Virus record (IMG/VR): IMGVR_UViG_3300014720_000095 | Span: 1-34,632 of that record | From: a virus | Direction: 5' to 3' (one strand) | Length of the DNA: 34,632 nucleotides | Shown here: one piece after another, positions 2,374-31,725 of the stretch | Position numbering within the stretch: the first letter of the stretch is position 1 | Layout of the letters: every line of letters starts with the position of its first letter | The notes under the pieces: generated by a model | Told to the model about the DNA's origin: nothing | What the model saw: only the letters and a program-made list of their open reading frames with translations | Databases searched by the model: none | Position numbers and translations under genes: made by a program

Positions 2374-4095
2374 TTAGACGATACCACCAGTTGGCATTGA
2401 AACGTACAATGTCAAGTACATGGACTGTGGGTGGTGACCAGCCTCTACAAGCGCATATCTTGATTTGACAGCGATTTTTGGAGACATAGTACCTTCTGAG
2501 ATAGTCTGGATAGATTCAGCCATCATGTAAGGCATGAATTTCAATCCTGGCTCATCATCAGCACCTTTTCTACCAACAAGCACTCTAGTGTCGTTGAAGT
2601 TCATGTTTTGATCAACATAAACGGTCATACCAGCAAGAGAACCTACAGGGTACAAAGTACCGTTGTTCTGAGTAAGAGTGTTAGTGAAAGGAGCGAAAGT
2701 GAACTGGCTGATATCTTGCAACGCAGACGCAACTTGTGAGTTGGTAACGATGAAGTTAGCAGGACCTCTTCTTCCTCTGTTAGCTACTACGTTAGCAGCT
2801 GCAAGGACTCTAGAGAACAATCTTCTTTGTAGAGTAGATTGGTTTTCGAAAGAAGTACCTGAAGGACCAGCTGGGATAGCCATTGTGAATCCAGTGTTGT
2901 CTTTTCCGATGTAAGCAGATGTAACAGAAGCACTACCAGACAACTGAAGATTAAGGTTAAGGTTTGTTCCCTCTGTGTTCTTAAACTCGTTGTGGTTTGA
3001 CCAACCAAGTGCAAAAGCTCTTGAAAGGATGTGCTTGTTGATCGCCTGAGAAACCTCGTTAACGAGAGCGTTTTCGATCATAGAAACTACGTCAATACCG
3101 AATTGCTTGTTAAGGTCTTGGATTTGCTCAGTTGTTACAGAAGCAGCAACTTGGAAAGTACCAGCTTCTACGAACTTAGTGAAAGTAGAAAGACCAAGTG
3201 ACTTGTAGTAAGTGCTTTCTCCTATTCCTCTGCTCATTGGATCATAAACCTGAGTTCCGTCTACGTAAGGACCTTGGAAATTAGCGGTATTGTTAACTCC
3301 AGCACCACTAAATCCTTGGATGTGATCTTCTAAGGTTTTAACCAATTGAGCAGCTGCAGATACGAAAGATAATGCTGAACCTGTAGATCCAGAAGAAGCT
3401 GTAGTATCGTTATCCAGCGCGGCTCTAATTTCAGAGTTAGCAGTAACTGCATCAGCAATAGAATCGTTATTTGTTAAAGCTGTAACTTTGAAGATAGGGA
3501 ATCCGTCGATACGAGAATATCCTACGAATGCACCTTTAAGAGTTGGGTCTGTACCTGCGGTTGTTCCTGTTACGAAGATAACATATTGAGTACCAACAGT
3601 TAAAGTACCAAATACCGGAGATGCAGCAGATACTGGAACTTTGATTAAATCTGGGGAGTTCGCAGTGAAAGGTGAAGTTGTATCACTTCCTGTAAGTTTT
3701 CCACCTGCATAAACATAGTCAAGGTAGGAAAGAACTCCAGTTGGACCGCTCATAGGAATAACCGGAACGATGTCAAAACCGATAGTTTTTGCAGCTACCT
3801 GAATAGCTAGAGGAAGAAGGGATGGGAATTTGTCGCCAGATCCAAGACCAGTTCCTGAATATGTTCCACCAGCGTAGAATCCAGCAGGACCTTGTCCAAG
3901 ATTTCCGGCAGCAGTGATTGCGCCCATACCATTGAGTACGCCAAGAGAGTTATACGCTCCGGCAGACTCGTTAAGAGAGTGGAAGTGGCAGTAAGTTGAA
4001 AGCCATTCTACTTTACCTCTCTCAGTGAGACCTGTTTTGCTCTCGATTATCGGAGCCCAGGTTTCATAAATTTCATGTTGATTAATTAGTTGCAT
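2374..4095 (-). CDS. 23: Major capsid protein (T4 gp23-like)
   Basis: A 573-residue protein matching the T4 gp23 plan: a short N-terminal propeptide (T-W-A-P-I-I-E, comparable with K-W-K-P-L-L-E in gp23), a maturation site at L41-N42-E43|S44, and then a Gly/Ala-rich arm containing A-G-A-Y-N-S and M-G-A-I-T-A. The C-terminal part contains R-R-G-P-A-N-F-I-V-T-N and the sequence V-E-A-G-H-H-P-Q-S-M-Y, typical of this fold. In T4 the protein forms the hexamers of the head shell after cleavage by gp21. It follows the protease-scaffold fusion by 12 bases and ends in a strong terminator. More codons end in C (AAC, TTC, TAC) than in the neighbours, consistent with high expression. An inserted region around residues 110-250 with Thr/Ser-rich loops may be surface-exposed. 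Confidence 0.93.
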   Translation of the reverse strand: MQLINQHEIYETWAPIIESKTGLTERGKVEWLSTYCHFHSLNESAGAYNSLGVLNGMGAITAAGNLGQGPAGFYAGGTYSGTGLGSGDKFPSLLPLAIQVAAKTIGFDIVPVIPMSGPTGVLSYLDYVYAGGKLTGSDTTSPFTANSPDLIKVPVSAASPVFGTLTVGTQYVIFVTGTTAGTDPTLKGAFVGYSRIDGFPIFKVTALTNNDSIADAVTANSEIRAALDNDTTASSGSTGSALSFVSAAAQLVKTLEDHIQGFSGAGVNNTANFQGPYVDGTQVYDPMSRGIGESTYYKSLGLSTFTKFVEAGTFQVAASVTTEQIQDLNKQFGIDVVSMIENALVNEVSQAINKHILSRAFALGWSNHNEFKNTEGTNLNLNLQLSGSASVTSAYIGKDNTGFTMAIPAGPSGTSFENQSTLQRRLFSRVLAAANVVANRGRRGPANFIVTNSQVASALQDISQFTFAPFTNTLTQNNGTLYPVGSLAGMTVYVDQNMNFNDTRVLVGRKGADDEPGLKFMPYMMAESIQTISEGTMSPKIAVKSRYALVEAGHHPQSMYLTLYVSMPTGGIV

Positions 4096-4107: not shown

Positions 4108-6108
4108 TTATTTTTTGAATTTCTTTTCCAATTCAGCTGCTATGTTTGTCAGATAATCTGATCCATAACCTTTAGCTGGCTGTGATTGGTTCTGAGATTC
4201 GTCTAATTTTTGAACGTTAGATGATTGGTTTCTAAATCCTCTAGTAGCCCAGAAGTTATTGATCTGATAAGGGGTTTCAAGTTTATAAAACTTGCTTTGA
4301 GCAATAACCGAAGCTTTTTGAGTTTGGTTTAAGCTTTCCCAAATTGGAACGATATCCTTTGGCATCATATCTAGGAATTTTTCGCCAGATTTAACTTGTT
4401 CAGTTAGAGCGGATCCCATAATTTGAATTACATCCGTACCCGAATTGTAATTCTGCTCGTTTAGAGCCTTAACGACCTTGTGTTTTTCGGCCTCGTTGAG
4501 AGATAAAAATCCTTTTTTAGTCTGATCGTCGACCAGTTTTAGGAAAGAATATTTATTCTCATTTATGATCTCATCTGTTTTTTGTTTGTTAACAGATTCT
4601 ATGAGTTGATCTACTTTTTCAGTTAATGAAGAGTAATCTCCAGAAAGTTTTGAGGTTCTTTTTCCTTCTTTAACAGATTCTGAAACCTCTTCAACCAAAG
4701 AATTTTCTTTGGACTTTTTACCTTTATTTAAAGATTCTGCTACATATTCAGTGAATCCTATATTAGTAGAAAGTTTTTCAGCTAAATAGTCAGAATAGGA
4801 AATAGTTCTATCAAGGTTTTCTGCGATATACTCAGAGTATGAAATGTTTTTGTCTAAGTTTTCAGCAAGATACTCAGAGTATGAAATATTCTTATCAAGG
4901 TTTTCTGCGATATACTCAGAGTATGAAATGTTTTTGTCTAAGTTTTCAGCAAGATACTCAGTGTAGGAAATATTTTGGTCTAAACTCTCAGCAAGATACT
5001 CAGAGTATGAAATATTTTTATCCAAGTTCTCAGCAAGGTATTTGCTATAAGAAATATTTTTATCTAAATTTTCTCCCAAATACTCAGAGTAGGAGATGTT
5101 ATTATCTACGTGCTCTGCTATGTACTTAGAATACGAAATTGCCTTATCTAGGTTTTCAGCTAAATACTTGTTATATGATATGGATCCTTCTAGATTCTCA
5201 GCAAGATAATCACCATATTTAATAGCAGTTTCTAAATTTTCAGCAAGATAATCTGCGTATTTTTCTAGCTTCGCCACTCTCGCTGCTAACTTGGAATCTG
5301 TTCCTGCTTGTGAACTTTCGTTTAGTGGAGCAGTTTTTAATTTGGCAACCTGACTTTTGATACCCTCCATTTCTTTTTTCAAAATGAGAGAATATTCATT
5401 AAGCTCTTCGGCTGTAACAAAATTTTGGTCCATATTTTTTGGTTTATTTGAGCTTTCTTTTAGTAGTTTCTCTATCTTTTCTACGTCTTTGATTCTATAT
5501 ATCTGAACGTTTGAATTTTTCTCCAGCCCCATGCTTTCATTGATATTGGAGAGAGACGATATAATAGAAGATTCCATTGATCCTTGAAGAGCCTGCATTC
5601 CTAAGCTTTCATATACTCTTTCAAGTTCAGCTGCTTTTCCAAATCCGCCATCAGCAACAAGATCATAAGTAAAGATCTTTTTAATCTCTACCTTTTTATT
5701 CTCTTGTACTGATCCAGCTGCTCTGGATGAAATAGAGATAGGAATTCCTGCATCAACTAGGCTTTTAGCAATTTTACCAGCAGGGGTATCGAGCAATTTC
5801 ACTCTAATTCTTACTGTTCTGTCACCTTTGTTATATTTAAGATCCTGTACTATGTGTGAGATATTCTTAAGTGAAACATCGAATTCTTTAGGGTGATCCA
5901 ATTCACCAACTAATCTTTTGGAATTAATTTTATCTTGAAGATATTCCATATGAGGAAGGTATTCTTGCTCCTCATATATTCTTCTGTTTTCGTTCTCTTT
6001 CCCAAAAACAGCAGCTACACCTTCAAGGATGTAATCTTTGCCGCTTTTTTTAGCAGTCAAATTAGAGCTTGACTTTTCGAGAATCAGTATGTAATCCTTA
6101 TCTTTCAT
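4108..6108 (-). CDS. 21: Prohead protease-scaffold fusion (gp21 + gp22-like)
   Basis: A 666-residue protein. Residues 1 to about 200 match the T4 gp21 prohead protease: N-R-R-I-Y near residue 42, the catalytic His motif G-E-L-D-H-P (G-E-L-N-H-P in T4), and the catalytic Ser motif S-I-S-S-R-A (V-S-S-R-G in T4). T4 gp21 is only about 212 residues. Here the protein continues into Lys/Glu-rich helices, 13 tandem 14-residue repeats (residues 284-465, Y-S-E-Y-L-A-E-N-L-D-K-N-I-S type), and a C-terminal helical region ending in Lys-rich sequence. The extension looks like a core/scaffold protein (gp22 role). Nearly every repeat contains an (L/I)AE|N site matching the gp21 cleavage consensus. The gene lies directly upstream of the capsid gene, as 21-22-23 do in T4, and has a GATATATA promoter 15 bases before its ATG. 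Confidence 0.9.
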   Translation of the reverse strand: MKDKDYILILEKSSSNLTAKKSGKDYILEGVAAVFGKENENRRIYEEQEYLPHMEYLQDKINSKRLVGELDHPKEFDVSLKNISHIVQDLKYNKGDRTVRIRVKLLDTPAGKIAKSLVDAGIPISISSRAAGSVQENKKVEIKKIFTYDLVADGGFGKAAELERVYESLGMQALQGSMESSIISSLSNINESMGLEKNSNVQIYRIKDVEKIEKLLKESSNKPKNMDQNFVTAEELNEYSLILKKEMEGIKSQVAKLKTAPLNESSQAGTDSKLAARVAKLEKYADYLAENLETAIKYGDYLAENLEGSISYNKYLAENLDKAISYSKYIAEHVDNNISYSEYLGENLDKNISYSKYLAENLDKNISYSEYLAESLDQNISYTEYLAENLDKNISYSEYIAENLDKNISYSEYLAENLDKNISYSEYIAENLDRTISYSDYLAEKLSTNIGFTEYVAESLNKGKKSKENSLVEEVSESVKEGKRTSKLSGDYSSLTEKVDQLIESVNKQKTDEIINENKYSFLKLVDDQTKKGFLSLNEAEKHKVVKALNEQNYNSGTDVIQIMGSALTEQVKSGEKFLDMMPKDIVPIWESLNQTQKASVIAQSKFYKLETPYQINNFWATRGFRNQSSNVQKLDESQNQSQPAKGYGSDYLTNIAAELEKKFKK
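4714..5259 (-). repeat. 13 tandem 42-bp coding repeats (14-residue scaffold repeats)
   Basis: Thirteen consecutive 42-bp units encode Y-x-x-Y-(L/I)-x-E-N-L-D-K-N-I-S. Central copies are nearly identical in protein (Y-S-E-Y-L-A-E-N-L-D-K-N-I-S) and vary mainly at synonymous sites, while the outer copies are more diverged. Fourteen residues equals two heptads, so the array can form a continuous coiled coil. One copy has G-E instead of A-E, and the last copy has V-A-E. Confidence 0.95.
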
Positions 6109-6162: not shown

Positions 6163-8310
6163 TTATTCTTCTGTTTCTTCTACTTCTCCGGATACCCCGT
6201 CAGTTAATTCTTCCATGGCCTCCGATAATTTTTCCAGATCTTCTTCCTTAAGATCCTTAATATTTTCTTCTACCTTAGAATTATTTTTATTAAGCATAGC
6301 CAATCCTTGTTTACAAGCATCCAGGGCGTTATCAAAATCTGCTGGACTGCCAGTTAAAGGATCTTTAGTTTTAAATCTAGGAAGAGCGGGAATTTCGTCC
6401 ATGTCTGTTACGATATCTTTGAAGAATCCTGCTATACCTTCTTCGCCAACTATTCCCTGTATACTCGATTCTATCGATTCACCAGCATAGGTTTGAAAAT
6501 TTTTCTTAATCTGACTCCATGCCGAAACTGCCTTACCGTCTCCATTGTCGGTATAAGTACCTCTACAAAGAACTAATGTAGACATTATTGCAAGGAGATC
6601 CTGTGATGATACCGTTCCTTTTAAACTGTTGGATAATCCCCTAGCCATAGCATTAACAGCAATATTTTCAATATAGCCATTAAAGACTAAAACAGTAACC
6701 GGCTGTCTATCTGATCCTACCCATTTAGCTATTGTAGATCCACCTACAGCGCCAGAAGCGAGAGTAATAGCTCCAGCAGTAGTTCCTAAACTACCCGCTG
6801 CTCCAACTGCTCCTGCGAGACCGCTTGCCCCTAGAGAAGATGCTCCGAGTAGGGTTCCTCCAACAGGTATAGCAATGCCAGCAGCTCCAGCAGTGACAAT
6901 TACTGCACCAACTAGAATTCCAGCAACAATTGCTCCTTTAGAGAAATCCCCCCACCATTCACTCCAGCTTTCATCGTAATACACTGTATATGCACCATTT
7001 CTAACTGGCTTATATCCTTTCCAGATTATTTCCTCATTTTTCTTTTCCCCTTCCCCGCCTTCGTCTTTTTTAGCTTTGATACACTCGAGATCTATTTGTT
7101 CAGTTTCTATTGATTTATTCAAACACTCTTCAGGAATTTTATATCCTATAGTTTTGCTTTTATCCTCTTCCGCTACCAGTTTATATGACGGATTTTTTGA
7201 AATAGTTTGCGCAAATGAATCAAATCTTAGCACCGGAACTCCCTCGTTGAACTCAGCTTCAAATATTCTATCTTTTAAATACTTATCAAATCCGATGGAT
7301 TCTTTTGCTGCGCTGTCTATTGTTTTTATCTTTCTTTCGATGTCTTTTTCTTCCAGAGCCATAATGGAATCATATCCGTCTTTGGTTAGATCTCCAACTA
7401 GACTGATGTCTTTGTTTTTATTGAGATATCCAAGAATTATATTTACACATTTGGATGTTCCCTTTCCATATTTACCATCGGCTTTTCCTCTTGATTCTAG
7501 GAAAGTAGCAATTGCAGGAAATAACTCCATTATTTTAGTTTGAAGCTTTTGTACTTCTTCACACTTTGCTGATCCCACTCTAACAGGAAAAGTACATTTA
7601 CCTGTCGGTGTTGGTGTTGGTGTTGGTTTTGTTTCGTCTTTAACTTCCGGTTTTGGAACCACAACAACAGGAATTGGCTGAGGTGTATAAGAGATCTCTG
7701 CTTTAGTTAGCAATAAATCTTTTATTCTTCTGTACTCTTTTTTCTGTCTGATTATTTCGTTAATTAATGAATCAATCTTAACCTTATAATCTTTTCTTTT
7801 ATATTGTGTTCCTCCTGCTGTAACTATCTTAAGTCCTTTCCTGTCTACCAGTTGAAGATTCTTGGCTTGAACTAGTAGATCGTTTGCAGTTTTTTCAAAT
7901 TTCTGAACCTGAGGATCCTCAGCCATTAATTTTGTGTATTTGTCTCTAGTGATTTCACCAGTGAATGCTAATGCAGCATCCATCGCTTCTTTTGATCTAT
8001 CAAAAGCAGGGCCTTCAAATTGACCAGACTCAACATTTGATTCCTCGCCTGTTTTACGATCCTGTTCGAGTATAGATGATTCTTTTATATTTGATATCTT
8101 GGTCTTCTTTAGATCGTTAGCCCTATTTTGAAGGTCAGCCTTAAAATTTCTGACCATTTCACCTATAGTTTGGCTAACTTTAGAAAATGCCTTTTCATCT
8201 TTCAGTATTGGCTCTAGAGGAATTAAATTTGATTCTATGAATTTTACGTTCTGCTCCGCATAATTTTTATCGATCTTTCCTGATACAGCCAAGCTTTTTG
8301 CTGATTGCAT
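6163..8310 (-). CDS. Large putative virion protein with PG-binding-like and hydrophobic Gly/Ala region
   Basis: A 715-residue protein from the first ATG. Residues 1-230 are charged and helical, with candidate (L/I)xE sites. A P-T-P-T linker lies near residue 233. About residues 238-300 resemble a peptidoglycan-binding type 1 domain (E-E-V-Q-K-L-Q followed by A-D-G-K-Y-G-K-G-T-S-K). About residues 455-530 form a long Gly/Ala/Val-rich hydrophobic segment (A-G-I-L-V-G-A-V-I-V and similar) that could insert in membrane. The C-terminus is acidic. The reading frame stays open for 29 sensible codons upstream of this ATG, back to a TAA at 8398-8400, and no ATG, GTG or TTG lies between. The 51-codon gene upstream ends at that same TAA in the same frame, so the real product may be a readthrough fusion. 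The position before the protease and capsid genes suggests a head or ejected protein; the function is not established. Confidence 0.7.
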   Translation of the reverse strand: MQSAKSLAVSGKIDKNYAEQNVKFIESNLIPLEPILKDEKAFSKVSQTIGEMVRNFKADLQNRANDLKKTKISNIKESSILEQDRKTGEESNVESGQFEGPAFDRSKEAMDAALAFTGEITRDKYTKLMAEDPQVQKFEKTANDLLVQAKNLQLVDRKGLKIVTAGGTQYKRKDYKVKIDSLINEIIRQKKEYRRIKDLLLTKAEISYTPQPIPVVVVPKPEVKDETKPTPTPTPTGKCTFPVRVGSAKCEEVQKLQTKIMELFPAIATFLESRGKADGKYGKGTSKCVNIILGYLNKNKDISLVGDLTKDGYDSIMALEEKDIERKIKTIDSAAKESIGFDKYLKDRIFEAEFNEGVPVLRFDSFAQTISKNPSYKLVAEEDKSKTIGYKIPEECLNKSIETEQIDLECIKAKKDEGGEGEKKNEEIIWKGYKPVRNGAYTVYYDESWSEWWGDFSKGAIVAGILVGAVIVTAGAAGIAIPVGGTLLGASSLGASGLAGAVGAAGSLGTTAGAITLASGAVGGSTIAKWVGSDRQPVTVLVFNGYIENIAVNAMARGLSNSLKGTVSSQDLLAIMSTLVLCRGTYTDNGDGKAVSAWSQIKKNFQTYAGESIESSIQGIVGEEGIAGFFKDIVTDMDEIPALPRFKTKDPLTGSPADFDNALDACKQGLAMLNKNNSKVEENIKDLKEEDLEKLSEAMEELTDGVSGEVEETEE

Positions 8311-14209: not shown

Positions 14210-17200
14210 TTATGCGTCTATATCATCGATCACAAGAGCCTCCGAATCGTCGAAGAATCTTAATCTCAAAGGTTGACCAGTTGAGTAATTCTTTTTATAT
14301 ATGGTACAGGAATAATCCTGATACACGTAGGTAGCTGGGGTGAAATCTATATTGCTAACTTGACATTCCGTAATATTATATTGGAAATTATTTAATATGA
14401 TATTGCCATCTCCAGGAGATCCTGATCCAGCACCAAATAAATGCCTGATTGTGTTATTAGTGAAATTATCTTCTATTGAATTAAGATTAAAAAGCCCTCT
14501 AATTTCATTTTCTAAGAAATCATTTCCAATTGAATTGTGAGCAAAATCATTATCAATATAATTGGACGAAAATCCGCTTCCTATCCTATTATTGTAAAAT
14601 GTCCCATATATTCTGTTATTATAGGCTCCGTCACCTATAATATTAAACTGCATCTCAAATTTAACTGTATTTTCCCCTATTATGCCGAAGGAGTTATTTG
14701 CGGACAAACTTCCGAGATCATTCGAATAAGAAATGTTATAGAACACATTATTGGAGAGGAGAAATGTTCCGGAATTGAGAGCAAAAATTGAGTGGTTACC
14801 AATCTTATTATCCGCTGTTAAATATAGATTATTAAAAGTGGTAAATTCACTATATGATCCCGTGTTGTTGTCATATGAAAGTATATAATCACCAGTGGGA
14901 ACTGCAGCATAATAATTTACCCCTGTTGATGCGTATGAATAATTATTCGACACCAAAGTTGCCGATGTGTTTGTTGTAATTAACGAGATCTTAAAGCTTA
15001 ACCCCCCAACTAAAATTACGTCTCCATTAGAAAGTTCTGTTGTAAAAAGGGTTCCAACCCCAGTCAACGATGTACCCGAAATGGTAACGGTGCCCGTTTT
15101 TACCGAACCTTGTGAGTAATTCTCATATCTTTTAAACTCAACACTTCGGTGATCATAATCCGTTCTGTTGCCAAGATCGTCTATTCTTTCTGTGATCCTG
15201 CCCTTCGCTGGAGCTCCCATAACCTCAGTTGTATTAAAGAATATGTCATATTTTAATTCGTCTGCTGGATAAATTAAAGACCAAGCATTAGGAGCTAATG
15301 TGCTTCCGCTAGTTGCCAGCACACAAATAGGTTCAATCGATGATGTTTTCGTCGTAACTGATCCTTTTGGTGTGTATGTTAAAGAGCCATCGAAAGTAAA
15401 ATCTGGCTGGTCGTAAACTGTCTGATAGTCGCTGATAACATATAACGTTCCCGGAGATAAAGATCCAGGACTGGAAGTTATAGTATTGTATAAAGCGCTG
15501 TATGTGGTGACGATAATTCCTCCTAAGCTTCCTGGACCTGTCATACCTGTGGGTCCAGTGGGTCCGATGTTTCCTTGTAATGTAACTATTGAAATAGAAG
15601 TAGATCCAGATCCCTTAATTTCAATGTTGCTCCCAGATCCCACCGTGTAATCTACTCTAACCCAGAATCTTTCCCCCGCCTGTACATCTAATATTGCATT
15701 AGCTGTTATGACTTCGTCGGGTGTATATGATGCTTCAGACAGAATTGAATTATACCCTCTGAATCCATCAACAGCCAATGGCCCTGATGTATTCTTCATT
15801 AAATCCGTTACGATTTTAGATTCCCCTCCTGTTACAGAATGTGTGACTGTAACCCTATATGAAATTAGGTATCTTCCACTTTGAAGTATTTCCACGTATG
15901 TTCCAGTCTGTCCGGAATTGGTAAAGTTATTATATGAGTAATATGAACCATCTACTATTGGGTATGTGTCCAATAAAACCGGGGATGTTGATCCTGAAGA
16001 TAGTGCAGGCTGAGATCCTAATCTATATCCATTAAATGAATATAAACTTGTGGGAATTCCTATAGGACCTGTGGGACCAATATTCCCGATAGGACCAATA
16101 TCCCCAGTTGGTCCAGAATCACCTGTGGGACCAACACTCCCTGTTGGGCCTGTCTCTCCAGTAGATCCCGATATTCCCGTAGGACCAGTAGCACCAGTAG
16201 TCCCTGTAGGTCCAAATATGGTGTAACCTGCATAAACCCACGAGGATGTTCCAGAATTCCACTGGTAAACTTGTCCGTCGTTACCGTCTATATAAAGATC
16301 CCCGTCTATGCCCGAAAATATAGGCATACCAAATCCTGTGTATATCCCAGGTCCTTTATCTCCGGTTGGGCCTGTCTCTCCGGTGGCACCAAATCCAGTC
16401 ATACCCGTGGGACCTGTTGATCCGGTAAACCCTGTTTGTCCTTGAGCTCCGGTAAACCCTGTTTGTCCTTGAGCTCCGGTAGGTCCAATAGTACCAACAG
16501 ATCCTATTGGTCCTTGTGCTCCTGTTGGACCTGTTGATCCAGTAAAACCAGTAGTTCCTGCAGTTCCTGCTGCTCCGGTTGGTCCAGTTACCCCAGTAGC
16601 TCCAGTTGGCCCGGTTGGCCCAGTTGGCCCGGTTGACCCAGTTGTGCCAGTGTCGCCTGTGGGTCCTCCAGAAGGTCCAGTTGGACCTGTAAGTCCTGTA
16701 GCACCAGTTGATCCATTAGATCCAGTTGTTCCCGATAGAAAAGAAACCCAAGCATCAAATCCGTCTATGCCTCCAGAAAGACTTCCAGACGAGATGTTTG
16801 TTGACACAGTTCCCGTAATCAGTACAGCGTGTGAATTGGCAGATGCTCCTAAACCAGCATTTGCTATGATGGTAACGGTGTTAAGAGAAAATGAGGCAAG
16901 ACAGGGAACTGATAAATTTTGGAGAATATTAGTTACTAAAAGCTCCGCCGTGGTCACATTATCAATAGTCCAGGAAGCTGTTCCTGCTAAAACCGGACCT
17001 CCACCATTATCATAGTAAACCGATATGGTTTGTCCAGATGATCCCCCTGAATTAATATCAAATTGAAAAGTTGCCTTAGTCTCGCCAAAACTTAAATATC
17101 CTTGGTAGTCGTCGCCAGTAAATCTGACCTGTCCGACCAATCCAGGCTGAAGAGTTGGAAGAGGAGCAGTCCTATCCTCTATGAGTCTAAGTCTTCCCCC

Positions 17201-17536
17201 TGAATTTTTATTTCCAACCACGGCATGCCTGCCTATGAATATATCATTAATAAGGTTAATTCCCGATGCGAGAATTTCGCCATTATCTCCTTTAATCTCT
17301 ATAGATGGATTTCCCGAGACCGGCAAATTAATAAGGTTTGCCTTAATAATGTTAGTGTTAAGCCTGCCCGTGGGAAAATTCAAGGATTTATCCTGAATGC
17401 TTATTCCAAAAGCTTTATTTAGAATAGCAAATCCTTGTCTTAATTGATCAAAATTACTATTTGAAACCTGGTTATTAGCTCCAACTGTATTTGTGGCTAA
17501 CAGCTGTCTAATTGTAATATCGCTAAGTTCGTTCAT
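14210..17536 (-). CDS. Collagen-like/beta-helix fibre protein
   Basis: An 1108-residue virion-type fibre. After an N-terminal beta-rich region (residues 1-265) come Gly-X-Y collagen triplets in three blocks: about 268-399, 440-495 and a short one near 655-668, dominated by G-P-T and G-A-T. Between blocks two and three lies a beta-rich domain (about 500-650) resembling a C1q/TNF-like jelly roll. Next is a module with [12 protein letters not shown] and [19 protein letters not shown], a pattern I associate with tail-fibre proteins of Bacteroidota phages. The region around 900-1040 is an Asn/Ile/Gly-rich series (N-N-R-I-G, N-S-I-G-N-D-F) typical of a right-handed beta-helix. It is probably a trimeric adhesion fibre. 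It has a GATATATA promoter 19 bases before the ATG. Confidence 0.88.
16346..16732 (-). repeat. Main collagen-like Gly-X-Y block of the fibre gene
   Basis: Low-complexity DNA encoding Gly-X-Y triplets, mostly G-P-T, G-A-T, G-F-T and G-S-T. It includes a near-perfect 27-bp direct duplication (about 16425-16480) encoding G-A-Q-G-Q-T-G-F-T twice. The length is likely variable between relatives through slippage or recombination. Confidence 0.85.
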
Positions 17537-20920: not shown

Positions 20921-22552
20921 CTATTCTCCCTCAGCCGGGGTCTCTTCTGATGCAGGGGTTTCTGCTGCTGGAGCTTCTTCACCCTCTACAGGTTTGGATT
21001 CTTCCCCTGCTTCTTTCTCCTTGTCTAGATAAATATTATTCATTTTTCGGTCTTCGTTATTCAGTCCCAAATATTTGTCTATTAAAAAGTCCTGATCGAA
21101 GAAAGGAACCTCTTCCTCTCCTTTTTTCTCCTTGATTTCTGAAGCTGCGGCAATAAAGTCTATTGTTTTAATTAGCTGTTCTATTTCTCTGGATTCACCA
21201 AAAATATTATCACTTTCAAATTTTATACCCAATTGGCTTCTGAATAGTGCATCCTCCTTCAGTTCAGGAAAATCCAGGGCCATCTGAATCCAAAGGGGTT
21301 TGATAATAATTTCCTGAAATATAGATCTTATTCTAGTTACGAACTTGCCGTATCTTACCTCGTCTCTTTCCGCTCCCTCTGCTGCTATCTTAAACATTCC
21401 AGCTTGACCTCCGCTTCTCGCAGCGAATCTGTTATATGGGATTTTTGAATCCATTTTTAGCTTGTTAGAAAAATATACCACGGCATCCATTACGTTCATA
21501 TTTGGACCCTGAGGATTAATGGTTTCAACCTTAGGTGTTTCCCCTCCCATCTGCGGAAACAAATAGTTTTTATAGAACTGAAGGTTTGGCCTCCCGTTAA
21601 TACTTAAAGATCCTGAAGTGGTATCCAGTTTAATATCCTCTTTATATACGGACATAAGTTCGCCCAAGGTTTCTTTAGCTTTCTGTGGTGATTTACTACC
21701 AACCGGAATAGTCATTTTTATTCGATACTGGGAATTCATGACGTTCCATATAATCCTGGTGTGTTCCATTATCCTTAAAAGATTATAGGACCTGACTAAT
21801 CTTTCACAATATGATGTCCTTGTTACTTGACTTCCTTTTGCGTATGATATGTAGATCAGCTGCCCGTCATACAATTTTCTCTGTCTAACAGAATCCCCAT
21901 AATATTGGTACCAGATCTGAACGTGTGATCCATCGGGCTGTTTTTCCACTGACGGGGTTAAAGAAACTGGGTCAAGCTCTTTAAATCCAACGATTTTCTT
22001 TGCGTCTGATGAATATATTATTTCAAAAGATAAAAATCCATCTACTAAGAGCTGTCTGAAATATTGCCACCCAGTCAGAGCATTAACCATTCCATGAAGA
22101 ACGTATATTCTTCTGAAATTTTCTCTAATAGCACTGATTACTTCAGGCTTAAGATCTAAATTTAATAGGGAAGGATGACAGAAAAAGTTTTTTTCGTCAT
22201 AGACTATACCATCGTCACACAAAGTATCCAGAATATATTCTATTTCGGAGTTCATCGCGAACTTCCTTAAGAAATCTATTTTAAAAGGAACCTCCTTATC
22301 TAAACTAGCAATATACTTCCTATTTGAAGTGTCTTGAGACGCTATAGAATAAATAAAGTCCTCGTCCTCCTGGGCAAACCCAAATCTTTCTCTCATAGAA
22401 AGCTCTGCAGCCCCCATAGCCTGTGAGTTTTTAATCACTAGGTCCTTATACTCCATCCCGAAATTACCCAATTTTCTAGCAGTTTCTGCTATTCTTGAGA
22501 AAATACCTGATGAGTTTGATGATCCTCCTAAATTATCTAAAAATCCAGCCAT
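20921..22552 (-). CDS. 20: Portal protein paralogue B (T4 gp20-like)
   Basis: A 543-residue gp20-type portal protein. Family landmarks: E-Y-I-L-D-T-L-C-D-D-G-I-V-Y-D-E (T4 has v-S-E-I-V-S-D-A-I-V-Y-E), L-L-R-I-M-E-H-T-R-I-I-W (T4 L-L-E-D-A-V-V-I-Y-R), the P-Q-K-A-K-E-T-L region, and Y-F-S-N-K-L-K-M-D-S-K-I-P-Y-N-R-F leading to D-E-V-R-Y-G-K-F-V-T-R. The C-terminal tail is Glu/Pro/Ala-rich. It follows portal paralogue A by three bases and shares long identical blocks with it, so it is a tandem duplicate. T4 portals are homododecamers at the packaging vertex; whether both copies enter one ring is unknown. The E-x-x-A insert (A-A-S-E-I-K-E-K) and the N-terminus differ between the copies. Confidence 0.9.
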   Translation of the reverse strand: MAGFLDNLGGSSNSSGIFSRIAETARKLGNFGMEYKDLVIKNSQAMGAAELSMRERFGFAQEDEDFIYSIASQDTSNRKYIASLDKEVPFKIDFLRKFAMNSEIEYILDTLCDDGIVYDEKNFFCHPSLLNLDLKPEVISAIRENFRRIYVLHGMVNALTGWQYFRQLLVDGFLSFEIIYSSDAKKIVGFKELDPVSLTPSVEKQPDGSHVQIWYQYYGDSVRQRKLYDGQLIYISYAKGSQVTRTSYCERLVRSYNLLRIMEHTRIIWNVMNSQYRIKMTIPVGSKSPQKAKETLGELMSVYKEDIKLDTTSGSLSINGRPNLQFYKNYLFPQMGGETPKVETINPQGPNMNVMDAVVYFSNKLKMDSKIPYNRFAARSGGQAGMFKIAAEGAERDEVRYGKFVTRIRSIFQEIIIKPLWIQMALDFPELKEDALFRSQLGIKFESDNIFGESREIEQLIKTIDFIAAASEIKEKKGEEEVPFFDQDFLIDKYLGLNNEDRKMNNIYLDKEKEAGEESKPVEGEEAPAAETPASEETPAEGE

Positions 22553-22555
22553 TTT

Positions 22556-24148
22556 TTATAGTTTAACTTCTTCGGTTTCCCCGCCTCCTTCTTTCGGCTC
22601 TTCATCAGGTTTTTCCTCTTCCTTTTTCTCTTCCGCCCTTTTCTTATACCTTTCGTTTGCTAATCTGTCCTGATCATTCATACCCCAATACCTATCTAGA
22701 ACATATTTCATACTGAAATAATTTGTTCCGTCCGCTTTTTTAAGACCCGCAATTTTAATAACTTGGTCCTTTCTCGCAGTCAGAAGCTCTATCTCTTTTT
22801 GCTTAGTGAATTGATTCTCTTTGACGTAATCAAGTCCAAACTCGCTTTTCAGAAGATAGTCTGATTTTAGCTCCGGATGATCCAAACAAAACTGAACCCA
22901 AACTGGCTTTACCAAAATGTCCTGAAATATGGATCTCAACCTATTTATGAATTTGCCGAATCTTATTTCTTCCTGATCTAATCCATCAGCACCTGAACTA
23001 AATGTTCCCATGCTATTCTGCTCGTTCTGATTAAATCTAGAGAATGGAATTTTAGAATCTAGTTTCAATTTATCCGAAAAATATTGAAGTGCTTTGGTGT
23101 CAGTAAAAGCAGTGGCATCACCAGATCCACCTAGGGGTTGTATATCCGGAGTTCCGTTCTGACTTGATGGCATCAGGTAATTTTTAAAAAACTGAATGTT
23201 TGGTCTACCATTCACAAATAATTCCCCAGAATCTGAATCCAATCTAATATCCTCCTTATAGATTGACATTAGCTCTCCAAGAGTCTGCTTAGCCTTCTGT
23301 GGTGATTTGGTTCCTATCGGAACCGTCATTGTCATTCTATATGATGAATTCATCACATTCCATATTACCCTCGTATGCTCCATTATTCTAAGAAGATTGA
23401 ATGATCTAATCAATCTCTCAATATAACTTATACGAAGAGATGTTCCACTCCCTTTAGCGTAGCTTATATAGATTATTTGGGAATCATATAATTTTCGGCT
23501 CATTGATGGATTATCAGGAAATTGGATCCATGTTTCAACATAAGATCCGTCTTCTTGTCTCTCGGTTCCCTGCACCAGAGTAGACGGGTCTAATTCTTTG
23601 AATCCTATAATTTTTTTACCCTTAGAGTCAAAAATTATTTCAAATGATAGAATTCCCTCAATTAAAAATTTTCTGAATATGTGCCATGCAAAGATATCCT
23701 GATTAAATCCAAAAAGATTATAAATCTCTTTATATCTGTCGTTTATTTCCTCGCATATTTCATCCTTAAGGTCCTTGTGTTGCATGAAAGAAAAATAGGA
23801 CCAGAAGTTTTTTTCATCATAAACTATGGATTCGTCGCAAATAGTATCCAGAATAAATTCTATCTCCGGGTTTGCTGCAAATCCCTGACAGTATGCTCTT
23901 TTTGATTTGAAATCTTTATCAAAATAAGCAATATATTGCTTGGAGGTTGAATCTGCCCTTCTTATTGTGTATAAAAATCCCTGGTCGGTTATTCCACCAC
24001 CTTTAAGAAATTGGGCTTCAGTAACACCTACCGCCTGTGAATTTTTAACAACAAGATCTCCATAAGCCATTCCAAAAGAGCCTATCTTTTTGACGCTATT
24101 CATAATGGAGTTTATAAAATTACCTCTCTGATCTGTAAATCCTGCCAT
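22556..24148 (-). CDS. 20: Portal protein paralogue A (T4 gp20-like)
   Basis: A 530-residue gp20-type portal protein, about the length of T4 gp20 (524). It contains E-F-I-L-D-T-I-C-D-E-S-I-V-Y-D-E, G-F-K-E-L-D-P, L-L-R-I-M-E-H-T-R-V-I-W, Y-F-S-D-K-L-K-L-D-S-K-I-P-F-S-R-F, and E-E-I-R-F-G-K-F-I-N-R-L-R-S-I-F-Q-D, all placed as in gp20. The C-terminus is Glu/Lys-rich. It is the first of two tandem portal-like genes and has a GATATATA promoter 22 bases before its ATG, inside the end of the previous gene. Both copies keep the core motifs, so neither looks like a pseudogene. It forms the DNA entry ring, docks the terminase and starts head assembly. Confidence 0.92.
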   Translation of the reverse strand: MAGFTDQRGNFINSIMNSVKKIGSFGMAYGDLVVKNSQAVGVTEAQFLKGGGITDQGFLYTIRRADSTSKQYIAYFDKDFKSKRAYCQGFAANPEIEFILDTICDESIVYDEKNFWSYFSFMQHKDLKDEICEEINDRYKEIYNLFGFNQDIFAWHIFRKFLIEGILSFEIIFDSKGKKIIGFKELDPSTLVQGTERQEDGSYVETWIQFPDNPSMSRKLYDSQIIYISYAKGSGTSLRISYIERLIRSFNLLRIMEHTRVIWNVMNSSYRMTMTVPIGTKSPQKAKQTLGELMSIYKEDIRLDSDSGELFVNGRPNIQFFKNYLMPSSQNGTPDIQPLGGSGDATAFTDTKALQYFSDKLKLDSKIPFSRFNQNEQNSMGTFSSGADGLDQEEIRFGKFINRLRSIFQDILVKPVWVQFCLDHPELKSDYLLKSEFGLDYVKENQFTKQKEIELLTARKDQVIKIAGLKKADGTNYFSMKYVLDRYWGMNDQDRLANERYKKRAEEKKEEEKPDEEPKEGGGETEEVKL

Positions 24149-25773: not shown

Positions 25774-28083
25774 TTACTTTGAATTTTTCTTACCCGGAGC
25801 AGAAGATAGATTAGCTCTTTTTAGGTCCTCTGTGAATTTCTTCCCATTTTTCTTGGAATTTCCATGAGCTCCTGATAAATTAGCATTTTTTTCGTTCTCT
25901 ATGTGTTTTTTTGGATCCTTTATACCTTTAGCTGCTGGAGCTTTTTCGATTGACTTGTTTTTTTGTCCTTCTGTTAAGGCTAAATTATGATCTTTTAAAT
26001 CATCTATAAATTTTGAAGCAGATTTGATGCTGCTTTCTGGTGCTTTAGCTAATCCATGAATTCCAAGATCCTGTACAAATTTTGAACCGGCTTTACCTCC
26101 TGTTTTAGAAGGTGCCTGTGACAAATTTTGGTTTCCCAATCCTTTAGTTACCCCAATTTTACCTGTTTTTTTAACATAAGAAGCATTTGCAAGATTATGA
26201 TTTTTTTCGTTGTCAGCAAATACCGGAGAAGCGGAAGCGCTTGTTCCTGGGGCTTTAGCCATCATTTTCTTGGAGTTTTTTTCGGTTTTTGTGTCCTTTT
26301 TACCTTTAAGACCTTTCCCCATAGGAGCAACTGCCATTTGAGTTAATCCTTCTGATGTTGCTTCCCCTTCTAAATCTGTATTAGAAACCTCATCGATTGC
26401 ATTTTCTACGTCTCCGAAGAAATACTCACTAGTTGTTCCATTCTCCATCATTACAGTGTATGTCCTTGAATTCCCATCAACACCTATTATTTTTCCCTTA
26501 GCTCCGTTTCTTAAAACCCTAACTTCAGTTTCTAAAGGATATCCTATATTTTCATTTACATCCTCTGAGATCTCATTTTTAGATTTTTCAAATTTTTTGA
26601 TCTCAAAGTTAATTTGGTTCCATCTTTGCTTTAGAGTTTCTGTTTCTTGTTCTATTGATTCTCTGATTGATGCTAGCTCAACTGAATTTTTAAGAAGCGG
26701 GTTTTTCTGAATAGCGTTATCAATTTTTGCCATTTCTGCCTCTAGGACCTGTATATTATTAGAGATCTGAGTTCTGTCATTATACATTACGCTTCTGATT
26801 GCATCTTCTCTATCCAAAAATTCAGTTAGTGATTCTGAAATATCAAATCTGATAAATTCTTTTATAATGCTTGTAGCCTGTGTTGCATTTCCTTCATAAA
26901 CCTTATTCAGTTTCATTGAAGGATTGCATGTTTGAACATATATTTTACCGCTAACCTTGAATATGTTAGCTTCAACACCTTCGTAAATTTTCGAAGCTAT
27001 TTTCTTTCCAAAATCTATATCCATCAATTCTTCCGCTATTTTGGAGATCCCACTAATTTTATTAATGATTTGATTTGATCCCTCAAAAATTGTGTGCAGA
27101 TTAAGACTTAAAGCCTTAGGAAGATCTGCCTCTTTTATGGAATTACCATTAAATAATACTTTTTTGTCATCTCCCTCAAAAATAAAATCCACTCTGTTTT
27201 TTCCCGTAAAGCAAGATACCTTATTTTCTGATACTTTTACCATGGGATCATTGATAAGTTCTACTTTATTTAGAAATTCTGCTGGCAAAAGAGAAGCTTC
27301 TTTTTCAGATAAAACCCCCATTTCACTTTCAGTAACATAGAAGAATTTTCCTGATGTATGGAAAATACTTCTAGATTCTTCCACTAAGAGAGGAGAGTAT
27401 ATGTTTAGAATCTCTGACTGTGAATTATCAGATTTAACTTGCAATGAATTTTTTGATCTCGACTCATGTTCTCCAAGGAAATTAACCAAATTTCTTACTA
27501 TCGGATTGAATCCCCATTTTTTAAGTCCGGAAGCTAAAACCATTGAGTCTCTATTCTCTGTAACTAACCACTTAGACATAGATTCTGTTGCATCGCTGAA
27601 AAGCTCTCTTCCTGGAGCATTTTTAATGGCCTCATATGATTTAACAACCTCTATTTCTCTTCTTCTGTGCTCATATATTTTATTCAAATTTGCAAGTGCT
27701 GATTTGGCTGAATTCTCCCATTCAAACCCTTTAAGTTCTACTAAAACATTTTCGATTAAAAAAGCTTCCGAAATTCCCTTGTTAACTAAAAGGTTCTCGA
27801 ATTTTTCAAGAATAATTCTAGCTGATGGTATTTCATAAAGAGAAGAATTCTTAAGAGCTAGCACTGTGCTGAGAACCCCAAAAGAATACACTTTCTTGTT
27901 GCTTTTTGGTTTTAATGACCCCGTGTTTACGGATTCGTTTATTTTTTTGTCTTCTATGTAAGATCCGCTATTGGTAGATCTGTGGGAATTTGATCCTCCC
28001 CATTGCTGAGCTAATTTAGCAGCTGCAGCTTTTGATGCCTCCAATTGTATTTGCGAGATGTTGTTCGAAAAGTTTTGTTCCAT
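25774..28083 (-). CDS. Large putative head protein with KOW-like domain and basic repeat tail
   Basis: A 769-residue protein of unknown family. The N-terminus is Ala/Gln-rich with a candidate cleavage site K-I-N-E50|S-V. Residues about 60-450 form a mixed alpha/beta core. Residues 450-505 are coiled coil. About 514-560 resemble a KOW/SH3-like barrel (E-V-R-V-L-R-N-G-A-K-G-K-I-I-G-V). Residues from about 612 to the end are Lys-rich with six degenerate copies of F-x-D-D-L-K-x-x-N-L-x-x-A-P. The tail is strongly basic and could contact DNA or the inner shell. A GATATATA octamer lies 17 bases before the ATG and a strong terminator follows the stop, so it is a one-gene late transcript. An internal or structural head protein is my best guess. 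Confidence 0.75.
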   Translation of the reverse strand: MEQNFSNNISQIQLEASKAAAAKLAQQWGGSNSHRSTNSGSYIEDKKINESVNTGSLKPKSNKKVYSFGVLSTVLALKNSSLYEIPSARIILEKFENLLVNKGISEAFLIENVLVELKGFEWENSAKSALANLNKIYEHRRREIEVVKSYEAIKNAPGRELFSDATESMSKWLVTENRDSMVLASGLKKWGFNPIVRNLVNFLGEHESRSKNSLQVKSDNSQSEILNIYSPLLVEESRSIFHTSGKFFYVTESEMGVLSEKEASLLPAEFLNKVELINDPMVKVSENKVSCFTGKNRVDFIFEGDDKKVLFNGNSIKEADLPKALSLNLHTIFEGSNQIINKISGISKIAEELMDIDFGKKIASKIYEGVEANIFKVSGKIYVQTCNPSMKLNKVYEGNATQATSIIKEFIRFDISESLTEFLDREDAIRSVMYNDRTQISNNIQVLEAEMAKIDNAIQKNPLLKNSVELASIRESIEQETETLKQRWNQINFEIKKFEKSKNEISEDVNENIGYPLETEVRVLRNGAKGKIIGVDGNSRTYTVMMENGTTSEYFFGDVENAIDEVSNTDLEGEATSEGLTQMAVAPMGKGLKGKKDTKTEKNSKKMMAKAPGTSASASPVFADNEKNHNLANASYVKKTGKIGVTKGLGNQNLSQAPSKTGGKAGSKFVQDLGIHGLAKAPESSIKSASKFIDDLKDHNLALTEGQKNKSIEKAPAAKGIKDPKKHIENEKNANLSGAHGNSKKNGKKFTEDLKRANLSSAPGKKNSK
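25780..26260 (-). repeat. Degenerate repeats encoding a basic tail (six units)
   Basis: Six imperfect coding units of F/H-x-D/E-D/N-x-K-x-x-N-L-x-x-A-P/S separated by Lys/Gly/Ser linkers: N-H-N-L-A-N-A-S, N-Q-N-L-S-Q-A-P, I-H-G-L-A-K-A-P, D-H-N-L-A-L-T-E, N-A-N-L-S-G-A-H, and R-A-N-L-S-S-A-P. Spacing varies from about 23 to 30 residues. Confidence 0.8.
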
Positions 28084-29454: not shown

Positions 29455-31725
29455 CTAAGCGGGGCGACTTCCTGTTTCTTGTCCATAGAACATGGTTGCT
29501 TTCCATTGAACCTTAATTAGATCCTCATAACCATCGATTCTCCATGCGGCTAGTTGACCTTCTCTCGGATCGTCTGGATTTCTATAAGATTCCCAAAGAA
29601 TAACAGAAGATGTATCGCTGCTTCCGGAAGTTGATTCAGAATGCGTGACGTTGAAATCTTCACCATCATTAGAAACGATGATATTTCCTACTATCGTTCC
29701 AGAATTCTCACTATACGCATGATAATCAATAACTGCCCCTCTGAAATTTCCAAATCCTCCAGGACTATCATCCGGGTTAAACCAAACCTGTGGATCACCT
29801 CCTCTAGTGTATCTTATGGTTAAAGGATCTCCTTGAGTTATATCTAATACATTGGCTCCTTCGCCTGTCCGTACTTGAACATACCATCCTCCGGAATCCC
29901 CATAACCTGCAGCTCTCACCCCATTCCAACTATCTCCGGAATCCGAGCTAATAAATATATTTCTAACTCCGGGTTGATTGAATTCGGTAGCTTCTGTTTC
30001 ATTATCTACTTCGAAATAAGCATAGGGCCCATCAGAATCGAATTTGGCGGTGGATCCTATTTCATAATTTACAGATCGAGTCACTAAAACTTCTTTGTAA
30101 CCATACCATTCTTCGATTCTTCTATGAAAAGGTCCTTTGAATTTTATATGATTATTAGCGGAAGTTTTTTGAAGAGTTCCATCAGCAAATCGTATTCCTT
30201 CATTTATTTTAGTTAAATCAATTTCAGTTCGTATGTAACTGAAAGCTCCACCTCCATCTCTTTGCCAATTTGTGAATTTAATTGTATAGTATTTACTAGT
30301 TGAAGGTACTTTCATTACTGCTTCGGCTCCATCTATCTTATTTCCAATTCCCCAATATCCTTGAGCAGCGAAGAAATTCGTATATTCTCGAGATTCAATA
30401 TCACTAAGATCTTCATTTCCTTCGAAATTCCAAAGAGTTCCTCCAGGACTCACGTCCTCATCCCAAGAACCTTCGTCATAGGGGTTGTAAATTGCTTTTG
30501 AAGAATCTCTGGTTATAGCAATTACTCCAGGTTCGATTTCGTCTATTTCGCTTCCGTCAGTTGTGTGAACAAACATAATATCCGGATCGATTTGTTGTCT
30601 GGTATAATTGAATCCTCCTCCATTTCCTTGTCCGGTCCATTGGTTAAATTTAATAGCCCAATATTTGTCGTTGATTTCATCGTACATGACCCATTCAGTG
30701 CCTACTATGTATTGACCAACGTTCCCAACAAAAGCCTCAACCCAATTTTTGTAGATTCTGCTCTTTATATTTGTTAGATCTGCCCAACCATCGATATTCC
30801 ATTTAGTTCCTTTAGGGCTTAAATATCCACTAACTGGTAAATTATCATTCCATCCCGCTTCCAGTTCAGTATTAAATATTCCTTGATTTGAACCTCGGCT
30901 GATGCTTAGACCTGCATCTATCACATCATTCACGAAGAAAGGATCGGAATAACCCGGTTTTGTAAAAGTAACTAACTCTCCGATATCTTCTCCTGTAACT
31001 CCATCTACTTGTTGTCGAGTATAAGCAAAAGGAGCACCAGAATTAGCATTACCCCATTGAGTGAAATCTATTTTGTAGTATTTGTTGTTAGCTTCATCTT
31101 TCATAATGAAGTTTGGCGCAAGAACATTATTTCCTAAAGATCCCCCGACTGCATCGTAAAATGTTTCGTACTCTCTAGCATTAAGATTTGTTAGATCTCC
31201 CCATCCTTCTGTATTCCATCCTGTATTTTTTGGGCTCTTATGAAGTTCAAAATCATTATCGTTACCATCCCATTCAGGCTCTAATTCTGGATTGTATATT
31301 CCTTGATTTTCGCCTCTAGTGATAGAAATATCCGTATCAATCGAATCAACTTCATCTCCGTAATTTGTTTTGGTGAAATTGACAGGCTCTCCTATGAAAA
31401 AATTGATGGTTGTGGCATCGTTGGTAAGTTCAAGGTTTGTTATCGTTGTAGATCCTTCTCCTCCAGATCCGGTAGGTCCTTGTGGACCGGTAGCTCCTAG
31501 ATCCCCTTGTGGACCGGTAGCTCCTAGATCCCCTTGTGGACCGGTAGCTCCTAGATCACCTTGTGGACCCGTTGATCCTTGTGGACCTGTTGGACCAGAA
31601 GAAATTTCCGTTATAAATAGATTCCCGGGAAATTTTTTGGTGATCCCCTCCTGTGATCCTAAAATGTAATCCCCCGGTCCTAAAGTTGATGCTGGGGGAA
31701 ATTCCGTTATTTTTCTTTTTGCCAT
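29455..31725 (-). CDS. Collagen-like fibre protein with three copies of a ~125-residue domain
   Basis: A 756-residue virion-type protein. Residues 1-43 form an N-terminal attachment region (I-T-E-F-P-P-A-S-T-L-G-P-G-D-Y-I). Residues 44-88 are collagen-like Gly-X-Y triplets (G-P-Q-G-D-L-G-A-T repeats). Residues about 117-243, 253-380 and 384-503 are three homologous domains, each with I-T-R-G-x-x-Q-G-I-Y-N, a W-N-x-x-G-W-x-D-L-T-N core, and an F-x-Q-W ... F-x-Y-T-R-Q-x-I-D end. The third is the most diverged. Residues 510-756 form a C-terminal tip. It is likely a trimeric fibre or spike. A weaker T-A-T-A-T-A-G element lies upstream inside the neighbour gene, but no clean octamer, so co-transcription with the upstream pair is likely. 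Confidence 0.85.
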   Translation of the reverse strand: MAKRKITEFPPASTLGPGDYILGSQEGITKKFPGNLFITEISSGPTGPQGSTGPQGDLGATGPQGDLGATGPQGDLGATGPQGPTGSGGEGSTTITNLELTNDATTINFFIGEPVNFTKTNYGDEVDSIDTDISITRGENQGIYNPELEPEWDGNDNDFELHKSPKNTGWNTEGWGDLTNLNAREYETFYDAVGGSLGNNVLAPNFIMKDEANNKYYKIDFTQWGNANSGAPFAYTRQQVDGVTGEDIGELVTFTKPGYSDPFFVNDVIDAGLSISRGSNQGIFNTELEAGWNDNLPVSGYLSPKGTKWNIDGWADLTNIKSRIYKNWVEAFVGNVGQYIVGTEWVMYDEINDKYWAIKFNQWTGQGNGGGFNYTRQQIDPDIMFVHTTDGSEIDEIEPGVIAITRDSSKAIYNPYDEGSWDEDVSPGGTLWNFEGNEDLSDIESREYTNFFAAQGYWGIGNKIDGAEAVMKVPSTSKYYTIKFTNWQRDGGGAFSYIRTEIDLTKINEGIRFADGTLQKTSANNHIKFKGPFHRRIEEWYGYKEVLVTRSVNYEIGSTAKFDSDGPYAYFEVDNETEATEFNQPGVRNIFISSDSGDSWNGVRAAGYGDSGGWYVQVRTGEGANVLDITQGDPLTIRYTRGGDPQVWFNPDDSPGGFGNFRGAVIDYHAYSENSGTIVGNIIVSNDGEDFNVTHSESTSGSSDTSSVILWESYRNPDDPREGQLAAWRIDGYEDLIKVQWKATMFYGQETGSRPA
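31479..31559 (-). repeat. 27-bp tandem repeat, three copies, in collagen region
   Basis: Three adjacent 27-bp units, identical except for one base in the last, encode G-P-Q-G-D-L-G-A-T. Near-identity at synonymous positions points to recent expansion by slippage or recombination. Confidence 0.92.

Follow-up and report, generated by a model that had tools for sequence, protein, structure and literature searches.

A phage gene that probably joins a gp21-type protease to a scaffold dense in predicted protease sites, with a proposed nested scaffold product

How could a T4-type head obtain both its protease and its internal scaffold from one gene? The question is raised by a 666-aa open reading frame (ORF) in the window analyzed here, i.e., the whole 34,632-nucleotide stretch of the IMG/VR virus record IMGVR_UViG_3300014720_000095. 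A sequence-only reading of this DNA had described a gp21-like protease continuous with a scaffold-like extension made of tandem 14-residue repeats. The two parts are indeed continuous, since a single ORF on the minus strand encodes both of them. Our main reading, to which we give a probability of about 0.6, is that this gene supplies a gp21-type protease together with the site-saturated internal scaffold of a T4-type head, and that it also yields a nested scaffold product. The ORF, its parts, and its neighbor are as follows:

4108..6108 (-): protease-scaffold fusion ORF, 666 aa, one polypeptide
5620..6108 (-): protease domain of gp21 type, roughly residues 1-163 (Pfam, PHROG, profile, and Foldseek matches)
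5893-5895 (-): codon of His72, likely catalytic, paired with Ser127
5728-5730 (-): codon of Ser127, likely catalytic, paired with His72
4714..5259 (-): array of 13 14-residue repeats with [LIV]xE, residues 284-465 (repeat and motif counts)
4111..4647 (-): helical C-terminal part of the scaffold, residues 488-666, in which more [LI]xE sites occur (model and enrichment)
2374..4095 (-): major capsid protein, Gp23 family (Pfam Gp23, E 9.5e-41)

The gp21-like character of the protease was borne out by matches to Pfam Peptidase_S77 (E 3.5e-9; 36.9 bits versus a curated cut-off of 27), to PHROG207 (E 6.2e-33, residues 16-197), and to the T4 gp21 structure 5jbl, both by profile (E 8.3e-49) and by Foldseek (E 4.4e-9). 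Herpesvirus proteases ranked next in the Foldseek search, as weak matches (E about 0.1). The likely catalytic His72 and Ser127 are invariant in a 12-sequence alignment that includes T4 gp21 and in a 49-sequence alignment. The 5jbl chain has alanine at both places where T4 gp21 has His and Ser, and we read this chain as a catalytic mutant. T4 gp21 resembles the fusion protease in its fold, in the likely catalytic His/Ser, in the position of its gene immediately ahead of that for the capsid protein, and in having an N-terminal I-x-E site and a C-terminal [LI]xE site; however, it is a 212-aa protein separate from the scaffold. In the window, the Gp23-type capsid gene lies directly downstream of the fusion ORF. 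The 715-aa ORF that adjoins the protease gene (6163-8310, minus strand) has neither a Pfam nor a PHROG match and shows no [LI]xE excess (10 vs 9.7). Elsewhere in the window, two adjacent minus-strand genes (20921-22552 and 22556-24148) both match the PHROG213 portal family (E 5e-56 and 4e-58) and form a tandem portal-like pair, and two tail-fibre-like genes (14210-17536 and 29455-31725, minus strand) contain tandem repeats with periods of 9, 18, 27, or 54 nt and a collagen-like look.

The array had been described as 13 tandem 14-residue repeats, twelve with [LIV]AE and one with LGE, which proved exact on recount. Across the 13 contiguous units, LAE occurs in 8, IAE in 3, VAE in 1, and LGE in 1 (unit 5, residues 340-353), so that 12 of the 13 have the strict (L/I)xE form. 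The motif was said to be followed mostly by N, as is the case in 9 of the 13 units (S in 2, H in 1, and K in 1), and it does fit the L/I-X-E specificity published for T4 gp21 in the accessible text of PMC9026906. Shuffles of the same residues gave a mean of 4.2 [LI]xE compared to the 12 observed, and none of 500 shuffles was as high. At the DNA level, the array repeats with a period of 42 and 74-80% matches. Such a tandem 42-nt period is what might be seen in a recent slippage product without function, but synonymous sites are nearly saturated between units (pS 0.78) while pN is low (0.24, or 0.17 for units 4-12), and 88 relatives also have arrays, of about 8 to 15 units each. The unit-to-unit differences indicate an old array under selection at the protein level. 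A recent slippage origin is refuted by these values together with the arrays of the relatives, and its probability is practically nil. Structure prediction with AlphaFold2 (49 sequences) made the array helical, at residues 272-376 and 384-462, in line with the earlier expectation, but at low confidence: pLDDT is about 38-68 over the array, and the whole protein is poorly folded (mean pLDDT 61.7). By hand count, the hydrophobic positions are 1, 4, 5, 9, and 13 of 14, which does not appear to be the canonical a/d heptad pattern. Pfam matches to the array (LTI65_PGEED, FERM_F2, and PSCyt2) were set aside as repeat artefacts.

Relatives of the fusion were collected from phage records and from IMG/VR. 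A tblastn search of phage records returned 764 with a match, only 6 of them covering 80% of the query; these six are unannotated records 462-735 kb long, two are of equal length with the match at the same place, and L001-L005 were taken from five. The IMG/VR scan gave 37 loci with the whole protein as the query, including a 100% match of the ORF to IMGVR_UViG_3300013132_005385 (L024), its own contig. With the protease domain as the query, the best 80 of 589 confirmed relatives were kept, and the survey thus leans to close relatives. A protease ORF was present at 119 of 126 loci, and 101 of these ORFs were distinct; 88 were surveyed, leaving out L006, L007, and L009, which have other scaffold types, and ten proteins of 420 aa or less. 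All 88 surveyed relatives, those from the 462-735 kb phage records among them, carry the protease and a scaffold of 14-residue period in one ORF. Since the survey rows share ancestry, naive p-values are too small. The comparison of repeat number proposed with the sequence-only reading gave about 8 to 15 recognized units in relatives, except that the array of L005 is degenerate. In L099, L112, L119, and L120, a second repeat with a period of 6, 13, or 31 residues lies between the array and the tail, and the [LIV]xE sites of L119 are a median of 7 residues apart.

Outside the 88, protease and scaffold are also fused in Lak-A1 (L006), without the 14-residue period, and in Flavobacterium MaF61 (L009), whose 1404-aa protein is built differently. 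The "prohead core scaffolding protein and protease" of Tenacibaculum phage PTm1 (L007) is likewise fused, with an alignable C-terminal domain and tandem repeats that carry LSE or similar, but its repeat period is 16/32 instead of 14. In this fusion (L007:4420-6186), the same design may have arisen independently. The protease and scaffold genes are separate in the T4, cyanophage, Pelagibacter, Klebsiella, Dickeya, Vibrio K490, PA5oct, and C48C1 records. Judging from these sequences, the fusion is a feature of a lineage, and perhaps of one made up of phages of Bacteroidota, as suggested by the hosts of L006, L007, and L009 and by the accessible part of PMC9723584. A crude motif applied to small ORFs found no bS21 gene of the kind described in that part of PMC9723584. 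One scan of genome contigs found no cellular relatives of the fusion protein, and no title or abstract in the open PMC literature (subscription papers and preprints lying outside it) concerned the array or a nested start in a gp21-type gene.

The distribution of the repeat motif is that expected of a protease site in several respects. In the repeats of the clade to which the window belongs (16 proteins), E7 is present in 111 of 113 distinct units, and in those of the huge-phage clade (9 proteins) it is present in 58 of 59. E7 has the lowest entropy of the 14 positions in both clade sets, and position 14, one heptad from E7, has the highest. In the C-terminal tails of 80 of the 88 proteins, those not cut at the 3′ end, E follows [LI] at +2 at 2.16 times the expected frequency, and all other offsets from -10 to +10 remain at or below 1.24 times. 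Fifteen representative tails, a set that also omits L110 owing to an unneeded filter, gave 2.07 times at +2, with the next best offset at 1.40 times. In the linkers, +2 reaches 1.78 times, yet +5 reaches 1.53 times, making the linker signal weaker. The same +2 measure was applied to 141 T4 ORFs, from 112 kb of the 169 kb, with gp67 missed by the ORF rule and Alt lying outside. In this control, gp22 ranked 1st, gp21 2nd, gp68 6th, and gp23 8th, and the 133 unmarked ORFs stood at 1.15 times; gp21 substrates cut only at a propeptide ranked low (gp24 50th, IPII 81st, IPIII 87th, and IPI 95th). T4 gp22 and two other scaffolds gave 2.35 times at +2. T4 gp22 contains 16 [LI]xE in 269 residues, or one per 17 aa, with LAEN, LAES, IAEK, and IAEQ among them. 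The fused scaffold is very probably dense with protease sites. The earlier proposal of a self-shredding scaffold stands to the extent that the motif is under selection in the fused scaffold, but the density of sites that it emphasized is already ordinary in T4 gp22. Because gp22 is nearly as site-dense, what is new here is the regularity and the fusion. Another protein of the window, a 769-aa product without a family match (25774-28083, minus strand), contains 22 [LI]xE where 10.8 are expected and shows 2.05 times at +2, but also 1.78 times at -6; it is a candidate for a core protein that the protease cuts.

Four individual sites are predicted outside the repeats (↓, predicted cut):

6076..6078 (-): Glu11 of I-L-E, where activation cleavage at the N terminus is predicted (hydrophobic-x-E in 48 of 49 rows)
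5608..5610 (-): Glu167 of V-Y-E↓S, predicted release site (alignment)
5536..5538 (-): Glu191 of I-N-E↓S, predicted release site (alignment)
3967-3969 (-): codon of the E of LNE43↓S, predicted cleavage site of the capsid propeptide (conserved among fused relatives)

T4 gp21 cleaves nine residues from its own N terminus, according to the accessible text of PMC9958956, and the Glu11 site corresponds to this self-cut. Glu167 is invariant in the 12-sequence alignment, T4 gp21 included, and is kept in 30 of the 49 rows, 18 rows being gapped at this position. Glu191 is E in all 49 rows, and the next residue is S in 42 of them, N in 5, and A in 2. Among fused relatives, the capsid site near residue 43 reads LNE↓S, INE↓N, MNE↓N, IHE↓N, or LYE↓N. 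Together with the +2 enrichment, this conserved [LIM]xE↓[SN] site is indirect evidence that the protease may cut after L/I-x-E.

It could be argued that the array is only a structural rod, with YLAE serving in helix packing; the protease would then cut outside it, at sites of the LNE↓S type, and the rod would leave the head or stay in it whole. Consistent with this explanation, the model makes the array helical, and Y1, Y4, L5, and A6 are conserved to the degree expected of a packing motif. In 36 divergent proteins with 266 distinct units, E7 is absent from 56 (some of these being leading units outside the array proper) and A6, retained in 196, comes close to it in conservation, so that part of the repeat motif is structural. 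Divergent arrays hold the 14-residue period yet lose some E7, as in L005, from a 462 kb phage record, where E is found in only 6 of 10 units. Sites outside the array also carry other flanks, with N in 30% at P2 and S in 34% at P1′ (often LNE↓S), versus A in 70% at P2 and N in 50% or K in 17% at P1′ for array sites (mostly LAE↓N). Nonetheless, E7, which a heptad reading places outside the core, varies least of all positions among close relatives, and where unit cores are degenerate (at least 7 differences), 45 of 50 units tend to the same end by retaining both L5 and E7, although these relatives are not independent. Moreover, T4 gp22, which is known to be degraded, holds LAEN, LAES, and IAEK, here as sequence forms rather than mapped cuts. 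Taken together, a purely structural array is unlikely.

We thus favor an array that serves as protease substrate, with the qualification that its sites may be cut more slowly, or that some of them may stay uncut. The uniform 14-residue peptides foreseen in the sequence-only reading agree with the regular motif but less so with the differing flanks and the missing E of divergent units. Units without the motif at positions 5-7 contain another [LIV]xE in 24 of 52 cases versus 74 of 620 (all array units). For the divergent proteins, a substitute in the same unit was found in 22 of 46 versus 57 of 216 (naive p 0.007), and for 14 representatives in 10 of 24 versus 24 of 103 (p 0.08). These counts are suggestive of compensation by another [LIV]xE in motif-less units, with a weak effect in the representatives, which are divergent ones.

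In T4, there are about 580 gp22 to 55 gp21, as given in the accessible text of PMC9958956. A fusion alone would tie scaffold to protease at 1:1, which a second start would correct. The sequence-only reading had overlooked a conserved internal Met that could provide it:

5431..5433 (-): Met226, proposed internal start of a scaffold-only product (conservation)
5434..5451 (-): A-rich, G-poor leader before the Met226 codon (base composition)

An equivalent of Met226 is present between protease and scaffold in all 88 survey proteins, where it was picked as the Met nearest ahead of a scaffold motif, at a distance of up to 14 or 16 residues, and set by hand in L086, L087, and L089. In the 49-sequence alignment, which is independent of the picking rule, Met226 is the sole invariant column between E191 and Y239. 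From this residue onward, the sequence resembles a protein start (MAEFVK, MENNEFVT, or MANEFVT). The 18 nt upstream of Met226 contain 60.8% A and 5.6% G, compared to 59.2% A and 9.3% G upstream of gene starts and 39.3% A and 19.1% G upstream of 594 other internal Met codons. Relative to what the encoded residues need, leader codons carry an excess of 0.68 A and a deficit of 0.30 G per 18 nt, the corresponding values being about 0 in similar stretches elsewhere. For 21 group representatives, the A fraction of the leader (0.60) was compared with residue-matched windows (0.455) and with other Met codons (0.418), and in each case 0 of 5000 draws were as high. In the 29 of 85 proteins that were folded, a median of 88% of the windows of the gene are more structured than its Met226 site. 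No Shine-Dalgarno sequence is evident at Met226, and none is evident at gene starts either.

These observations suggest a nested scaffold-only product from Met226. Alternatively, Met226 might be no more than a remnant of a scaffold gene that was once separate, or it might belong to the fold, with all of the protein made as full-length fusion. The linker is rich in N, K, T, E, and Q, with A-rich codons, and the residue-matched A excess is modest, both of which suit this alternative. Yet Met226 is invariant inside an otherwise variable linker, and the A content of the leader exceeds that of residue-matched windows of the same genes in every draw, which makes a mere relic somewhat unlikely. The linker of PTm1 differs in having no Met between residues 146 and 288, and a nested start would therefore not be universal among fusions. 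A scaffold-only product would have to be cut in trans. Cutting in cis, as first proposed for this array, is also weakened by T4 gp21, a pentamer whose digestion of the core follows assembly (accessible text of PMC9958956).

How the fused scaffold relates to known scaffolds was examined by profile and fold comparison. No homology to T4 gp22 was found in three hhalign comparisons (probability 0.4, 0.4, and 0.8%), and a search of BFVD with the tail fold reached gp22 (ACG-2014d) only at E 1.9. The tail model, which is helical with a mean pLDDT of 68.2, matched two uncharacterised or protease entries in BFVD at E about 1e-7 and, weakly, PTm1 at E 0.19. The best weak alignment of the scaffold with gp22 pairs an L-x-E-x-x-K stretch in both. 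T4 gp22 and its cyanophage relatives are like the fused scaffold in being helical and in lying between the protease and capsid genes, and gp22 is also dense in [LI]xE; however, gp22 shares no detectable homology with it, and its sites are irregular rather than set in 14-residue repeats.

Scaffold and protease are joined in other viruses as well. In phage lambda C/Nu3, the scaffold is nested in frame at the end of the protease gene, and the C protease belongs to a family unrelated to the gp21 type. To our knowledge, no repeat array occurs in lambda C/Nu3 or in herpesvirus UL26/UL26.5. According to the accessible text of PMC4498786, herpesvirus UL26 encodes protease and scaffold in one ORF, and UL26.5 is a shorter in-frame scaffold. 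As in the window, the protease is N-terminal and the scaffold C-terminal, with a release site between them, whereas the cleavage motif is another one and the Foldseek match is the weak one mentioned above; the in-frame scaffold product is known in UL26/UL26.5 and proposed here. With these two precedents, a protease-scaffold fusion as such is not new.

In the scheme that we infer for cleavage, its timing, the peptide sizes, and internal initiation, a helical rod of 14-residue repeats would assemble with the capsid protein. Once the shell had closed, the protease would activate by cutting its own N terminus, free itself through the release sites of the linker (V-Y-E↓S and I-N-E↓S), and remove the propeptide of the capsid protein at LNE↓S. 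The scaffold would be chopped to small peptides, whose exit would make room for DNA. A second start at Met226 would give scaffold without protease, so that scaffold would outnumber protease, as with UL26.5 and UL26. In a stricter form of this scheme, the full-length product would bring the protease, the Met226 product would provide surplus scaffold, and nearly every unit of the periodic rod would be cut to near-uniform 14-mers; we consider this form plausible, at somewhat less than even odds. If the scheme is true, the regular spacing would ensure complete clearance in very large heads. The scaffold of this family can be recognized by sequence in phages with genomes of up to 735 kb, and the family yields predictions, namely, peptide masses in one-repeat steps, the release sites, and a scaffold-only product. 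The herpesvirus arrangement, in which a scaffold is nested in a protease-scaffold fusion, would now be placed in the gp21 family as well.
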